Shown piece by piece: positions 7,920 to 29,408 of a stretch of DNA of 36,892 bases (its first letter is position 1; every line of letters begins with the position of its first letter). A program made the translations under genes and the position numbers. Origin of the DNA: Candidatus Moraniibacteriota bacterium. GTDB lineage: Bacteria > Patescibacteriota > Minisyncoccia > Moranbacterales > UBA1568. Below the pieces are notes generated by a model. That model was not told the origin of the DNA. It worked only from the letters and a program-made list of their open reading frames with translations, and made no database searches. Where the stretch lies: NCBI GenBank assembly GCA_008012175.1, contig SSEF01000009.1, forward strand, positions 1-36,892, in the 5' to 3' direction.

Positions 7920-8732
7920 TCACCAGACCCAGCGCAGCGTGACAAAAAAATATCCGGCTGCGAGAAGCGCAAAAGATGCAAGGAAAAATCTTCGGCCACG
8001 GGTTCGAAGGACCAGATCGGTTGAGATTTCTTTAGAGACGATTCCGATATTCTTGAAGAGAAAGAGCGTTTCATACAGCCGAACAAGCACCACCCATCCG
8101 AGGAACAGGCCGACATAGAGGCCCAGCCCGGGCATCCATGGATTGGCAAGCTCGAGTGTCGGGGCAGCCGGCGCCTTGGTCAGCCACTTCACCCAGCCAG
8201 CCCACTTCATGTCGAAAACGTGGATCACAGCGAGGAGAATAACGAGGCGCATCCCCCAGCGTTGCAGGAACCACCAGCGCGCTGGACCAAGCAGGCCGAT
8301 GATCTTTTGAAACGATATGACGAAGAGAAATACGAGGAGGACGATCCCGACCAGGCCAGCAGCAAATTCCGCCTCAGCGAATGAATACCATTCGGCTGGA
8401 AATTTCTTCGGGAGAGCAGCATACGAGATGATCGCGTGCGCCGCGATGAAAAACGCGCCGACGATGCCGAGCTCTTTCCGGAGCCCGAGCCATTTATCGA
8501 ATCGGTCGAAGTAACGCGTGATCGGCCCGACGAGGAACGTCAGCGCGAGCATCACCATACCGACGCCAGCGAGCGCCTTGTTCGGGACGTAGAGCATGTC
8601 GGCAGTCGGTGGCGCATCGAAATAGTAGCCGCGCCGCACCAAGAGGTATGAACTGAAGAGCACGAAGAGAATGAGCGCTACGAACAGGGTGATGAAATAA
8701 TCCCGTCCACTGAATGGCTTATGCCCTTCCAT
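7920..8732 (-). CDS. Ferric-reductase-like (MsrQ-type) transmembrane protein
   Basis: Multi-TM; KELGIVGAFFIAAHAIISY and RLVILLAVIHVFDMKW helices resemble ferric reductase-like domain. Confidence 0.7.
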   Translation of the reverse strand: MEGHKPFSGRDYFITLFVALILFVLFSSYLLVRRGYYFDAPPTADMLYVPNKALAGVGMVMLALTFLVGPITRYFDRFDKWLGLRKELGIVGAFFIAAHAIISYAALPKKFPAEWYSFAEAEFAAGLVGIVLLVFLFVISFQKIIGLLGPARWWFLQRWGMRLVILLAVIHVFDMKWAGWVKWLTKAPAAPTLELANPWMPGLGLYVGLFLGWVVLVRLYETLFLFKNIGIVSKEISTDLVLRTRGRRFFLASFALLAAGYFFVTLRWVW

Positions 8733-8782: not shown

Positions 8783-9487
8783 TCATCCGCGGACATTAAC
8801 CTGCCGTTCCGGCGTCTGGAACCGTTTCGCCAATCCGGCCATCTCATCCATGCTGAACCCATGGCATTGTGCGAAAGCCGGATCGAGCGTCTGAGCCGGA
8901 CGGAAAGCTTGAAAGTACAGTCGGCAAACGCCCTCAAGCAGTCGCGAAAGCTCAGCGAGTACCGGTTCAGTATGATGTTCGCGGATGAGCGTCGTCCGGA
9001 ATTCATGTTCGATGTTGCTTCCGCTGATGAGGCTGATGCTCCGCTTGATATGCTCCGGCCTCACTCCCGGACCAGCGAGCTCTCGGTACCGTTCCAGCGA
9101 GGTCTTCACGTCCATAGCGATATAATCGACAAGTCGCCCGGCGATGAGCTGTTCGATCATGTCCGGATTATTGCCATTCGTATCGAGCTTCACCGAAAAC
9201 CCGAGCATCCTTATCTGATCGAGGAAATCCGGCAAGTCCCGCCAGGCCGTTGGTTCACCGCCTGAGACCACGACCCCGTCGAGGAGCCCCTGGCGCTTCT
9301 CGAGGAACCGGAAAAAATGCTCGGCCGAAATGAAGCTTTCCGAGATGGCGCATAGCCGCTCCGGCAGGACGAACTCCGGATTATGGCAGAACCCGCAGCG
9401 AAGGTCACAGCCTGGCGTGAACGCGATGCAGGCGACTTTTCCAGGAAAGTCGAGTAGGGTAAAGCGCTGGATCGCCGAGAGCTTCAT
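8783..9487 (-). CDS. nrdG: Anaerobic ribonucleotide reductase activating protein (radical SAM)
   Basis: FTPGCDLRCGFCHNPEFV radical-SAM CxxxCxxC (CDLRCGFC), VVSGGEPT motif; adjacent to nrdD. Confidence 0.92.
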   Translation of the reverse strand: MKLSAIQRFTLLDFPGKVACIAFTPGCDLRCGFCHNPEFVLPERLCAISESFISAEHFFRFLEKRQGLLDGVVVSGGEPTAWRDLPDFLDQIRMLGFSVKLDTNGNNPDMIEQLIAGRLVDYIAMDVKTSLERYRELAGPGVRPEHIKRSISLISGSNIEHEFRTTLIREHHTEPVLAELSRLLEGVCRLYFQAFRPAQTLDPAFAQCHGFSMDEMAGLAKRFQTPERQVNVRG

Positions 9488-9702
9488 GCCTGTGCAACTA
9501 CCGGATTGTCAGCCATGAAGCGATGATTGTCCGCAACGCACTCTTCGAAATGCTTCCTCGAATAATGCTCGGCCTTTTTCCCGATATTGAAATGTGAAAC
9601 CGGACGATGATACCCCATGACGCGGGTCCAGACTTCGCAACGGGTGCGCTGCCCGTTTACTCTCGATTCTACAACCTCCGCCCCAACCAGCTTCTTGTTC
9701 AT
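9484..9702 (-). CDS. Separate glycyl-radical C-terminal segment of class III RNR (NrdD-like)
   Basis: RTRCEVWTRVMGYHRPVSHFNIGKKAEHYSRKHF resembles the NrdD C-terminal RVxGY...NxGK glycyl-radical region; ATGA overlap with nrdG. Confidence 0.8.
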   Translation of the reverse strand: MNKKLVGAEVVESRVNGQRTRCEVWTRVMGYHRPVSHFNIGKKAEHYSRKHFEECVADNHRFMADNPVVAQA

Positions 9703-9730: not shown

Positions 9731-11848
9731 CTATTTAACCGCATCTTGACTCATATAGGCTTGGCGTAGCGCCGCATCGTATCGCGACCCCTCCTCTATC
9801 CCGAGTGCTGCATCGCATTTCGGACAGAAGTCATGCTCCCCGTTGAGATAGCCATGCATCGGACAGATAGAAAATGTCGGCGTGATAGTGATGTACGGCA
9901 GGCGGAACCGGGAAAGGATGTTCCGGACCAGGCTGCGGCAGGCTTCTCCCGAGCTCACCCGCTCGTTCATATAGCAATGGAGTACCGTGCCACCGGTGTA
10001 CTTCGTCTGAAGCGTATCCTGGAGCTCGAGTGCCTCGAAGACGTCGTCCGTGTAGCCGACAGGGAGCTGGGACGAATTCGTATAGTACGGTGCCTCGGCG
10101 GTACCGGCTTGGAGAATATCAGGAAACCGCTTGCGATCTTCCTTTGCGAAGCGATATGTCGTCCCCTCGGCCGGAGTTGCCTCGAGATTGTAATAATTCC
10201 CCGTTTCCTCCTGATAGTCTTTGATCTTCTCGCGCATGAAGTCGAGCACCTCGATCGCAAAGGCCTGCCCCACTGGCGTCGTGATATTCTCGGCATCCCG
10301 GGTGAAGTTGCGGATCGCCTCATTCAGGCCGTTGATGCCGATCGTTGAGAAGTGATTCTTCAGATATCCGAGGTAGCGCTTCGTGTAGGGAAACAGCCCC
10401 CTGTCGATCCACTTCTGGATTTCGGCGCGCTTGATCTCGAGCGACTCTCTCGCGAGCTCCATCAGATGCGCGATGCGTCCCAGGAACGCCTCTTTGTCCC
10501 CAGCCGAAAGATAGCCGATGCGCGCTGCATTGATAGTCACCACCCCGATCGATCCCGTCATCTCGGCCGAACCAAAGAGACCACCGCCACGCTTCCGGAG
10601 CTCGCGGAGGTCGAGTTGAAGCCGGCAGCACATCGAACGCACGTCGCCGGGGTTGAGATCAGAATTCACGAAGTTCTGGAAATACGGCGTGCCGTACTTG
10701 GCCGTCATCTCGAAGAGCGGCAGGTTCTTTTCATCGCGCCAGTCGAAATCCTTGGTGATATTGTAGGTCGGAATGGGAAAGGTGAATGTCCGACCCTTAG
10801 CATCCCCTTTCGACATGACAGCGATGAACGCCCGATTGATGACATCCATCTCCGACTGGAGCTCGCCGAAAGTATACGCGAACGGTGCACCGCCAAGCCG
10901 GAGCCGCTTCTCGCGCATGTCAGCCGGACAGTCCCAGTCAAGCGTGATGTTCGTAAACGGCGTTTGTGTCCCCCAGCGCGACGGAATATTCAAGTTGAAG
11001 ACGAAGGACTGGATGTTCTGATAGACGTACTCATAGACCTTATCTGCGATGTACCGTTCACTGTCCTCATCGGAAGCAAAACTCATGCCATATCCTTCAA
11101 GATCCGCCCTGAGCTCCAGCTCGTATTTCTTCACGAACGGGGCAAGGTACGTATCGAAACTTGAAAAGGCCTGAGCGCCCGCCCACTCATTCTGGAGCGT
11201 CCCGAGAAAATTCACCATCTGCGCGACCGCGGATGAGAGATGCTTGGGCGGCCCAGACTCGATCTTGTTCGGTACCCCATTGAAACCTTCTTCGAGGAGC
11301 ACGCGCAGGCTCCAGCCAGCGCAGTAGCCGGAAAACATGTCGAGGTCGTGGATATGGTAATCGCCGTTCCGATGCGCATCGCCGACCGCCTTCGGATAGA
11401 TATGTGAGAGCCAGTAGTTTGCGATGACACTCCCTGCTGTATTCAGGATCATGCCGCCAAGCGAATAGCCCTGATTCGAGTTGGCATTCACCCGCCAGTC
11501 GAGCTTTTCGAGGTACTCTGAGACGGTCTTCTCGACCTGAACGACGACATTCCTCTCCTCACGCACCTCCCGCCGGCGTTCGCGGTACAAGATATATGCT
11601 TTGGCAACATCGGCATAATCATAGCGGATCAGGATCTCCTCAACGATATCCTGGATATCCTCAACGCCCGGTATCCGTTCGCCGAAACGCTCCTCGGAAA
11701 GCGCGACTACATCTAGGGCGAGCACCCGTGCACGTTCGAGATCATCGGTCCGGGTCGCGGCGAGCGCCTTCCGGATCGCTTCCTCGATCTTTTTCGCTTC
11801 GAAATCGACGATTGCCCCATTCCGCTTTTGGATCTTGTAGAGTGGCAT
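9731..11848 (-). CDS. nrdD: Anaerobic (class III) ribonucleoside-triphosphate reductase large chain
   Basis: N-terminal ATP-cone (MPLYKIQKRNGAIVDFEAKKIEEAIRKA), catalytic core, C-terminal zinc motifs CPMHG/CPKC; start at 11848 preferred over ORF start 11962. Confidence 0.95.
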   Translation of the reverse strand: MPLYKIQKRNGAIVDFEAKKIEEAIRKALAATRTDDLERARVLALDVVALSEERFGERIPGVEDIQDIVEEILIRYDYADVAKAYILYRERRREVREERNVVVQVEKTVSEYLEKLDWRVNANSNQGYSLGGMILNTAGSVIANYWLSHIYPKAVGDAHRNGDYHIHDLDMFSGYCAGWSLRVLLEEGFNGVPNKIESGPPKHLSSAVAQMVNFLGTLQNEWAGAQAFSSFDTYLAPFVKKYELELRADLEGYGMSFASDEDSERYIADKVYEYVYQNIQSFVFNLNIPSRWGTQTPFTNITLDWDCPADMREKRLRLGGAPFAYTFGELQSEMDVINRAFIAVMSKGDAKGRTFTFPIPTYNITKDFDWRDEKNLPLFEMTAKYGTPYFQNFVNSDLNPGDVRSMCCRLQLDLRELRKRGGGLFGSAEMTGSIGVVTINAARIGYLSAGDKEAFLGRIAHLMELARESLEIKRAEIQKWIDRGLFPYTKRYLGYLKNHFSTIGINGLNEAIRNFTRDAENITTPVGQAFAIEVLDFMREKIKDYQEETGNYYNLEATPAEGTTYRFAKEDRKRFPDILQAGTAEAPYYTNSSQLPVGYTDDVFEALELQDTLQTKYTGGTVLHCYMNERVSSGEACRSLVRNILSRFRLPYITITPTFSICPMHGYLNGEHDFCPKCDAALGIEEGSRYDAALRQAYMSQDAVK

Positions 11849-11930
11849 ATATTTTATGCTCGAAGTAGCTTTGAATGAGACAAAGCTTTTGCAATTTAGT
11901 GGCCCACATACCTCTAAACACTCTGGTACG

Positions 11931-11952
11931 AAAAAAGGTGTCATCCGACACC
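11931..11952 (-). terminator. Intrinsic terminator downstream of the PAS-sigma gene
   Basis: Minus strand: ggtgtc-ggat-gacacc followed by tttttt. Confidence 0.75.
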
Positions 11953-11985: not shown

Positions 11986-13041
11986 CTAGCTACCAGAGAG
12001 GAGTGGGCGGAGTTTTTTCCGGGCGCGAGAGAGAAGGAGCTTAGCTGCGTTTTCAGAACATTCAAACCGAACGCTCATCTCCCGGACCGAGTAGCCCTCG
12101 CGATAGTAGGCAGAGAGGGCGAGACGCTCGCGTACGGTGAGCTCGGGCATCTCCCAAATCCAGTTACTTAGCTCGGGCGCAGGCATCACTGAAGGCGCTT
12201 CGGTCAAAGAAAGATCGACCATTGGCTGACGACGGAATGAGTTTAGAAGGATGCTGTGAGCGATACGGAGGAGGTATGTACCATAAGCTGCATTGCGCGT
12301 CTCATAGCCGTCCAAACGCTCGAAGGCGCGGATGAAGGTATCCTGTGCGAGATCGAACGCTTGATCACGCTGCCCAGGCAAGTGGCGCATGAAATAGCGT
12401 TCGATGGTTTCAAAATATTTCTCGTAGATCGCCTGATAGGCCTGAGGATCCGCCTTGGCTGCCGCGATGAGCGCCCGATCATCAAAGCGGCGCTGAAACC
12501 GATCGCGAAGCACCCCTGACCAATGCCGCAGGGTCCAGTCAGAAAAAAATCCGCCAGTGTCTCGCTCTGCCCCCTGAGAAAGTTCACCTGGAAACCATTC
12601 CGAGAGCCACGATACGACAGGGGCGGCGGCGATCGACGGGCTTTTGAATACCGCTCGCCACTCTCTCACGAATCGATCAGCATCTTCGATCGCTGCCGGA
12701 CGAAGGGCGAGGTACTGGACCGAGCCATCCGAGCCCTCGAGTGGACAAACCGTCAAGAGTTCGGCGTACTCACGTCCCGCCTTTGAGCGGTTAGTCACCG
12801 ACCCGACAAAGCTAGACCGTTTGTCTCGGATAGTACGCCACATCTCATCATAGAACGAGCGTGGCATCCGCCCACCCCAGAGCCTGCCCGGTTTCGCACC
12901 AAGGATCTCGGCGACAGAAAACCCGGTCCGGAAAGCAATGCCCTCATTGGCATAGGTCGCTACCCCGAGAGCGTTCGTCAGAAGAATATTTCCCAGCAGT
13001 CGGCCTGTCTGGACAGGGCGACCCGATTCCATCTGTGTCAT
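11986..13041 (-). CDS. PAS domain-ECF sigma-70 family RNA polymerase sigma factor fusion
   Basis: N-terminal PAS-like domain (NILLTNALGVATYANEGIAFRTGFSVAEILGAKPGRLWGGRMP...), C-terminal sigma2 (DQAFDLAQDTFIRAFERLDGY) and sigma4 HTH (YREGYSVREMSVRFECSENAAKLLLSRARKKL). Confidence 0.88.
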   Translation of the reverse strand: MTQMESGRPVQTGRLLGNILLTNALGVATYANEGIAFRTGFSVAEILGAKPGRLWGGRMPRSFYDEMWRTIRDKRSSFVGSVTNRSKAGREYAELLTVCPLEGSDGSVQYLALRPAAIEDADRFVREWRAVFKSPSIAAAPVVSWLSEWFPGELSQGAERDTGGFFSDWTLRHWSGVLRDRFQRRFDDRALIAAAKADPQAYQAIYEKYFETIERYFMRHLPGQRDQAFDLAQDTFIRAFERLDGYETRNAAYGTYLLRIAHSILLNSFRRQPMVDLSLTEAPSVMPAPELSNWIWEMPELTVRERLALSAYYREGYSVREMSVRFECSENAAKLLLSRARKKLRPLLSGS

Positions 13042-27989: not shown

Positions 27990-29408
27990 CTAAGCTTTCC
28001 CGATATATCGCTCGACGCCAATGAAATACAAGACTCGACGGTGATCGTCTAGGATGGGCGCAACCCGGATGAGTGCCCGATAGCGGGCGCCCGACTTTCC
28101 CTTATTTACGATTTCACCCTCAAATACTTGCTTATGCAGTCGAATCGTGTCCCAGAACTGGCGATAGAACTCTCCTGGCATCTGGCGCCCCCAAAGCCCC
28201 GGAGTCTCTCCGATTATCTCCTTCCGACTGTATCCGGTCAGCTGTTCTGCAGCCACATTCGCATAGAGGATTTTACCTTCCGGATCGGTGATGATCATAT
28301 GGTCAAAGCTCTGATCAAGCGCTATTTGGAATTTTTCCAATTCATTCCGGCTTCCAATGGCTAAATCATTCGATTCCTGAATTTTCTTGATCGCCTCCAT
28401 CATGACCGTAGCGAGGTAAGAGAAATCATCAATATCCCCTTCAGGCAGGCCGCCCGACTGAAGCACGCTTACCTGGCGGGCGATCCGGCGCATATGCTCG
28501 ATCCGCTGAAGCAGGAAATAATCGATCAGCACAATCAGAACACCAACATAGCTCACCATGGCGACAAAAAGATAGGCAAATCCCTTAAGAAGGAAGTGGT
28601 GCCCTCGGATAAGGATATTCGAGGGATACTCTATCCGAAGTGACACCGATGGATTTCCAAATACGTTCTCTAGGAGACGCCAGCCGATTGTTTGACCAGA
28701 AACATATTCGATCATAGTCCGAGAGTCAGACTGGGACGCTACTGCCAAACTCTCGCTATCTGACGATCCTGCAAACCCATAAGGTGCGATCCGAACGCTG
28801 ATCCCTGCAAGTGTGCTCAGCATATCAGCATACTGCTGGTCGACATATCGAGCGAAAACAAGCGTCCCACGTCGAGGGCCCTTTCCATCACTCATGAGGA
28901 TTGGTTGACTCGAGACGAGAAACATTGAATCCGGCAGAGTTAAAATACCATGCCTCACGGAAATTGAATCATCGAAACGGAGCAGTTCGCTCTCACCTTG
29001 GAAATGCTTCATGAATTGTACGGGGGGCGAATCAGTCTCCGGTGCACCACCATAGACCTGCTTCGCAAAGACGACATCACCAGCATTATCTACGAACGCC
29101 ATGATATGGACACCGATCAGCGCGAGTGATTCGTCATTCAGGTTTGAATCGATATACGCCTCATTCCGATCTGACATAAAGACATACGTATCGTCCCAGT
29201 GCGCCCAATCCGCCTGCGTCCGACTCATATTCTCAATTTCCCTGCCGAGGATTCGCTCTACCAGAGCGAGCTGCTCCTCAGCGCTCTCATATTGGAATAT
29301 CTTCAGACTGCTGTCCGTCGTCTGCCAAATGACTCCGCACACGCACAGGAGAAAAATTCCTGTTGCAAACAATATAATAAGGTATGTCTTTTTTCTGAGC
29401 GACAGCAT
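27990..29408 (-). CDS. CHASE4-PAS membrane sensor protein without recognisable output domain
   Basis: Two TM segments flanking a CHASE4-like region (SRTQADWAHWDDTYVFM), HAMP-like linker, C-terminal PAS (HMIITDPEGKILYANVAAEQLTGYSRKEIIGETPGLWG), stop follows. Confidence 0.82.
   Translation of the reverse strand: MLSLRKKTYLIILFATGIFLLCVCGVIWQTTDSSLKIFQYESAEEQLALVERILGREIENMSRTQADWAHWDDTYVFMSDRNEAYIDSNLNDESLALIGVHIMAFVDNAGDVVFAKQVYGGAPETDSPPVQFMKHFQGESELLRFDDSISVRHGILTLPDSMFLVSSQPILMSDGKGPRRGTLVFARYVDQQYADMLSTLAGISVRIAPYGFAGSSDSESLAVASQSDSRTMIEYVSGQTIGWRLLENVFGNPSVSLRIEYPSNILIRGHHFLLKGFAYLFVAMVSYVGVLIVLIDYFLLQRIEHMRRIARQVSVLQSGGLPEGDIDDFSYLATVMMEAIKKIQESNDLAIGSRNELEKFQIALDQSFDHMIITDPEGKILYANVAAEQLTGYSRKEIIGETPGLWGRQMPGEFYRQFWDTIRLHKQVFEGEIVNKGKSGARYRALIRVAPILDDHRRVLYFIGVERYIGKA

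Follow-up and report, generated by a model that had tools for sequence, protein, structure and literature searches.

Here, we report a gene that joins a PAS domain, a conserved linker and the sigma2 and sigma4 domains of an ECF sigma factor in one protein, in the following termed PAS-ECF. It is located in a stretch of 36,892 nucleotides, referred to as the window, which belongs to a Candidatus Moraniibacteriota genome of 1.02 Mb in 40 contigs with a completeness of 95% (G000; the other sampled genomes likewise carry G-numbers). We consider it likely that PAS-ECF acts as a one-protein redox or oxygen switch dedicated to the operon of nrdD, the gene for the large subunit of the class III ribonucleotide reductase (RNR). 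The following features of the window are relevant here:

7920..8732 (-): membrane protein resembling ferric reductases, encoded behind nrdG; in G027, the homologous gene carries a copy of the promoter for itself
8783..9487 (-): nrdG, radical-SAM activase
9484..9702 (-): separate small ORF of 72 aa with the glycyl-radical motif RVMGY (CEVWTRVMGYHRPVSHFNIGKK), between nrdD and nrdG
9731..11848 (-): nrdD, large subunit of the class III RNR, lacking the glycyl-radical end; MPLYKIQKRNG is taken as the start
11915..11943 (-): predicted ECF promoter of nrdD, TGACACCTTT-N12-GTGTTTA, from motif comparison
11937..11952 (-): hairpin GGTGTCGGATGACACC followed by a T-run, with the -35 element as its 3' arm; probably the terminator of PAS-ECF
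11986..13041 (-): gene for PAS-ECF (351 aa)
12007..12147 (-): sigma4 domain (region 4), aa 299-345
12226..12486 (-): sigma2 domain (region 2), aa 186-272
12487..12699 (-): linker, aa 115-185, conserved and helical, perhaps a HisKA-like region that has decayed
12700..12993 (-): PAS domain, residues 17-114, with W68 and N84 at FAD-determinant positions (PMC10468136, PMC9668731)

The composition of the gene is confirmed. An earlier note, made from the sequence of the window alone, had assigned sigma2 and sigma4 of the ECF type to the C-terminal part, and the Pfam models Sigma70_r2 (residues 207-272, E 5e-9) and Sigma70_r4_2 (residues 299-344, E 8e-9) as well as the NCBIfam model TIGR02937 for sigma70-ECF (59 bits) all match above their cut-offs. 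The domain search returned no region 3 match in the window protein, whose sigma part comprises sigma2 and sigma4 only, as in ECF group IV. For the N-terminal ~120 aa a PAS domain had been proposed, and this is borne out despite a Pfam score below the curated cut-off (PAS_9 at residues 19-111, E 2e-4, 21.8 bits versus 27). PAS models match all nine aligned family members (best E 4e-10 for PAS_9 and 1e-8 for PAS), and thus the low score of the window protein is not a matter of chance. A phmmer search with its N-terminus retrieves FAD-binding PAS domains, namely those of MmoS, NifL and Aer, at E-values from 3e-7 to 3e-6. In the structure predicted by AlphaFold (mean pLDDT 70, pTM 0.50), PAS topology is found together with sigma2 and sigma4, and the Foldseek matches of this model comprise sigma-E, SigW, NifL, Aer and LOV structures. 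No anti-sigma gene adjoins PAS-ECF in the window, in line with the note; among the relatives, only G302 has a neighbour that resembles an anti-sigma factor, a DUF5667 membrane protein, and there an ordinary ECF is encoded separately close by. The idea of a cytosolic one-protein sensor and transcription initiator is supported as well, with its intramolecular mechanism and the reading of a promoter being inferred.

Of the 27 further genomes in this GTDB family, nine contain a homologue of PAS-ECF. Others are found in G047, which represents another family within the order, and elsewhere in the phylum in G202, G229, G302 and, in divergent form, G251. Together with G512, G518 and G519 this amounts to 17 genomes besides that of the window, and since they carry homologues of the same architecture, the fusion is real. 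Besides the window, 13 full-length loci keep the order PAS, linker, sigma2, sigma4, to which the divergent G251, a fragment at a contig end (G009 C21) and three further loci can be added; the co-occurrence of PAS and sigma70_r2/r4 that the earlier note proposed to check is thereby borne out. Overall identity to the window protein is 33-44% across two orders. In a tree of the sigma2-sigma4 part, which took in the PAS-ECFs known at that point, these form one well supported clade (100/98) together with a PAS-less protein of G452, distinct from the remaining ECFs that these genomes encode. A single origin of the fusion would be the simplest reading of this tree, though neither transfer between groups nor a loss in G452 is excluded. 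Outside the phylum, a scan of genome contigs with the window protein, which detects close relatives only, gave matches to ECF or PAS separately and to no complete fusion.

A few copies deserve separate mention. The PAS-less ECF of G452 (L144 1483-2061), whose sigma part falls within the clade, has a non-nrd context. The divergent PAS-ECF of G251 (L182 9650-10882) has a longer linker and comes without the Asn of the PAS domain discussed below, without linkage to nrdD and without the promoter motif; perhaps it has a different target. In the copy of G015 (L084 1501-2532), the PAS part is interrupted near its start by an in-frame TAG, for which decay or an assembly error is possible, and its nrdD promoter is kept.

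In G000, G007, G008, G009 (two loci), G010, G020, G022, G026, G027, G202 and G302, nrdD is located directly after PAS-ECF on the same strand. It is the next gene also in G512, G518 and G519, which gives 14 genomes from two orders; in G015 it lies about 5 kb downstream, again on the same strand. The gap between the two genes measures about 50-240 bp, nrdG is mostly next after nrdD, and the NrdD matches at these loci are 72-83% identical to that of the window, with two contig-end fragments as exceptions. This is in good agreement with the earlier note, which had regarded the vicinity of anaerobic RNR genes as compatible with redox sensing: the order of PAS-ECF and nrdD is kept across orders, and nrdD has a predicted promoter of its own. 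The divergently oriented 2-hydroxyacid dehydrogenase gene, also named there as a relevant neighbour, did not stand the comparison. It is not conserved among the compared neighbourhoods, and we rejected it as a partner because this neighbour varies across PAS-ECF loci.

The class III RNR of the window is itself split. NrdD stops before the glycyl-radical domain, which sits in the separate 72-aa ORF. The same arrangement was found in ten related loci and, judged by second NRDD matches in ORFs of ~90 aa, it is widespread in the order. DoxX-like genes follow nrdG in G202 and G302.

Ahead of nrdD we find a conserved two-box pattern, TGACACC-N14/15-GTGTTTA, i.e., with 15 or 16 nt between TGACAC and GTG. 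In the window it lies about 65 nt ahead of the nrdD ATG, and the chance expectation for the window is 0.01 matches with up to three mismatches allowed. All 13 loci first examined, G015 included, have TGACACCTTT(T)-N11/12-GTGTTTA or a near variant ahead of nrdD. Within the order, 10 of 124 genomes contain the exact pattern, and each of these has PAS-ECF; the 113 genomes without PAS-ECF do not contain it. nrdD is present in 110 of the 124, and the reversed pattern used as a control gave no match in this set. The eleventh PAS-ECF genome of the order, G007, shows GTGTTTG in place of GTGTTTA. Fisher's exact test gives p = 7e-14 for the association of motif and PAS-ECF when kinship is ignored, a value which overstates independence because the genomes are related. 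Furthermore, nine of the motif-bearing genomes are partly circular evidence, since the motif was first derived from them. Among 380 genomes across the phylum, the exact pattern was found only in G000 and G229, both of which are PAS-ECF genomes.

The cases in which sigma gene and motif are not adjacent are the most telling tests of the pairing. In G047, the sigma gene is located on contig C33 and the motif ahead of nrdD on contig C2; in G229, about 9 kb separate the sigma gene from the motif, which again lies ahead of nrdD. The genomes G512, G518 and G519 were found after the motif had been defined, and they carry TGACACCTTTTG ahead of nrdD with a -10 element of the CGTTTA, GTGTTTG or GTGTTAG type. 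Hence, the search for a shared non-housekeeping promoter motif that the earlier note had recommended yields a conserved pattern ahead of nrdD which tracks the PAS-ECF genomes. The pairing of PAS-ECF and promoter is strongly supported by comparative genomics; that PAS-ECF reads TGACAC-N15/16-GTGTTTA is inferred, and binding data are not available.

Searching 15 PAS-ECF genomes with a relaxed pattern of 13 bases revealed 14 sites, 13 at nrdD and one at a ferric-reductase-like gene. In G027, a second copy of the promoter precedes a ferric-reductase-like membrane gene that is 62% identical to the gene behind nrdG in the window. From these sites, the sigma factor seems to serve one operon and not itself. 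Positive autoregulation is usual for ECFs. It was rejected for PAS-ECF, as the motif was not found upstream of the sigma genes in the loci and PAS-ECF genomes scanned.

Could the conserved sequence be an operator for another regulator, e.g., NrdR, or a structural element, while the adjacent sigma factor acts elsewhere? The -35 half does double as one arm of a hairpin that looks like a terminator at several loci (besides the window in G020, G026, G302 and, weakly, G027), and NrdR is encoded in 26 of the 27 family genomes. Nevertheless, we give this explanation very little credence: the motif follows PAS-ECF and not nrdD or NrdR, with about 100 nrdD genomes that lack both PAS-ECF and motif; it has the form and spacing of -35 and -10 elements; it is unlike the NrdR box, of which the window holds none within three mismatches; and it occurs in trans in G047 and G229 as well as at a second gene in G027. 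A search for structured RNA in the nrdD leader gave no Rfam match. The hairpin between the sigma gene and nrdD fits separate transcripts of the two. We retain the interpretation as a promoter, with a possible contribution of NrdR: since NrdR is present, control of the nrd genes may be shared. A replacement of NrdR by PAS-ECF was rejected for the same presence in 26 of 27 genomes. A perfect single NrdR-like box, ACACTATATATAGTGT, was found just upstream of the nrdD promoter in G022 (L175 10742-10757), the only case among the loci scanned.

The genome of the window also encodes class I nrdA and nrdB, located beside an Fe/Mn superoxide dismutase gene on contig C10 (L248, 1332-5666), a cluster with the appearance of an aerobic module. 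An oxygen-dependent and an oxygen-sensitive RNR therefore coexist. In E. coli, nrdDG is activated by FNR (PMC4009431). A Crp/FNR-type HTH over the cut-off was found in none of the 27 family genomes versus 14 of 14 control genomes.

What the PAS domain may sense has to be judged from its residues. Binding of FAD by PAS domains depends mainly on a Trp on F-alpha, with Asn and His as secondary determinants (PMC10468136); in Aer, W70 stacks on the adenine and N85 bonds to the flavin ring (PMC9668731). All 14 aligned PAS-ECFs have the FAD-type Trp (W68), and 13 have the Asn (N84), the exception being G251, which also lacks the nrdD promoter. The combination of Trp and Asn that characterises FAD-binding redox PAS domains (NifL, Aer and MmoS clusters) is satisfied, while the His is not kept. 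The Aer contacts H53 and R57 are not kept either; the window protein has Arg at the position of Aer R115. The 48-60 loop of the PAS domain (GAKPGRLWGGRMP) contains no Cys, and the LOV criterion of a photoactive cysteine is not met. We infer from these positions that the PAS domain most likely binds FAD; this is not proved, and no cofactor has been seen.

It is conceivable that the sigma factor reads the nrdD promoter and that its PAS domain binds a small molecule or a protein partner, e.g., by PAS-PAS contact with a membrane sensor, or serves as a dimeriser only. PAS domains are versatile, and the PAS-ECFs share a conserved LWGG patch which was not found in Aer or NifL. Moreover, the window itself encodes (27990-29408, minus strand) a CHASE4-PAS membrane protein that ends right after its PAS domain without a kinase domain, its relatives being full histidine kinases; the PAS domains of this protein and of the sigma factor share 37% identity. 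However, among the loci inspected this kinase-less sensor is restricted to the window's genome, the Trp and Asn that mark FAD binding are kept, and the enzyme targeted is sensitive to oxygen, with an oxygen-dependent alternative encoded in the same genome. We regard a non-redox role as unlikely, though it should be kept in mind.

The ~70-aa linker described in the earlier note is present, conserved and helical; tentatively, it may be of decayed HisKA descent. An HMM built from the linkers scores 31.7 bits against the HisKA region of a degenerate PAS kinase in G430, compared to 9.3 bits for the best of 500 shuffles, and the matched region is a clear HisKA by a kinase model of the phylum (57 bits). 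Direct hhalign comparison with normal HisKA domains was not significant. A plain HisKA remnant thus failed the direct profile comparison, and the link rests on the single intermediate G430. Descent of the linker from the HisKA region of a histidine kinase seems plausible but is unproven. The G430 protein (L183 8667-9800) is soluble and combines PAS and HisKA with an ATPase part that is strongly degenerate. A protein of 157 aa comprising PAS and linker only was found beside a DoxX-like gene in G200 C4 (L184).

Such a descent allows for the possibility that the N-terminal domain is a vestige of a kinase fusion and that the sigma factor is regulated simply through transcription of its gene by way of a housekeeping promoter. 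PAS and linker resemble kinases of the phylum, the copy in G015 has its stop codon in the PAS part, and the close relative in G452 does without PAS. Set against this, PAS residues, linker and FAD positions are conserved across two orders at the overall identity given above, and we hold a vestigial domain to be improbable. For a functional sensor, the history could be that of a phylum-specific lineage in which a kinase PAS, perhaps with a dead HisKA helix, was fused to an ECF, and which replaces FNR by a flavin-sensing oxygen switch for one operon. On this broader proposal we are evenly divided.

The switch that we favour would operate as follows. The PAS domain, most likely FAD-bound, would read the redox or oxygen state of the cell. 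Under anaerobic conditions, with the flavin reduced, the sigma2/sigma4 part would be free to bind RNA polymerase, a direction of switching that is inferred. The holoenzyme would start transcription at one promoter type, TGACAC-N15/16-GTGTTTA, and thereby drive nrdD, the separate glycyl-radical gene and nrdG, presumed to be co-transcribed, in some genomes also the ferric-reductase-like membrane protein. The class I enzyme encoded elsewhere would serve oxic conditions. Several points speak against the switch: there is no experiment, the cofactor has not been observed, the -35 element is not the exact TGAAAC of SigW, and the divergent G251 has neither the motif nor the Asn. To these are added the PAS score of the window protein below the Pfam cut-off, the absence of Aer H53 and R57, the missing autoregulation and the presence of NrdR.

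If true, sensing and promoter choice would reside in one soluble polypeptide with a single target operon and without anti-sigma factor, kinase or phosphorelay, and the route leading from oxygen or redox state to RNA polymerase would be unusually short. This would suggest how bacteria with small genomes and no FNR could switch between oxygen-dependent and oxygen-sensitive RNRs. Sigma factor, promoter and predicted cofactor residues are defined and would make a ready test system, and a redox-gated orthogonal sigma factor for laboratory use is possible.

In the literature searched, we found neither a PAS-fused ECF nor a sigma factor dedicated to nrdDG; this search did not extend to the 2021 ECF reclassification or to the majority of subscription papers, and absence is not proof. 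PAS domains are not mentioned among fused ECF extensions in two reviews (PMC8999054, PMC8103513), which describe ECF41, ECF56 (SnoaL-type), ECF42, IutY/ECF243 (anti-sigma) and ECF36 (N-terminal TM/DUF2275). PAS-ECF resembles these in combining sigma2 and sigma4 with an extra domain and in having no separate anti-sigma factor. In those ECFs, what is added is mostly located at the C-terminus or is a membrane anti-sigma part, whereas PAS-ECF has a cytosolic N-terminal PAS domain and, unlike them, a promoter that is not autoregulatory. With regard to the sensor, the closest solved relatives are NifL, Aer and MmoS, which share the FAD-binding Trp and Asn, apart from the two Aer contacts named above. 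The outputs differ: NifL is an anti-activator, Aer a chemoreceptor and MmoS a kinase-like sensor, and in PAS-ECF the output is sigma2/sigma4. With regard to the target, PAS-ECF is proposed to do at nrdDG what FNR does in E. coli, i.e., oxygen-responsive activation of the class III RNR (PMC4009431, PMC12176259). FNR is an Fe-S activator that uses the housekeeping sigma factor, while PAS-ECF is a sigma factor carrying its own sensor in a genome without a detected FNR-type HTH. Finally, SigW of B. subtilis has a similar fold and a similar two-box promoter form, TGAAAC-N16/17-CGTA (PMC2375139), with a -35 element that PAS-ECF does not match exactly. SigW is held by the anti-sigma factor RsiW and controls a stress regulon; in PAS-ECF, a fused PAS domain would take the place of the former and a single operon that of the latter.
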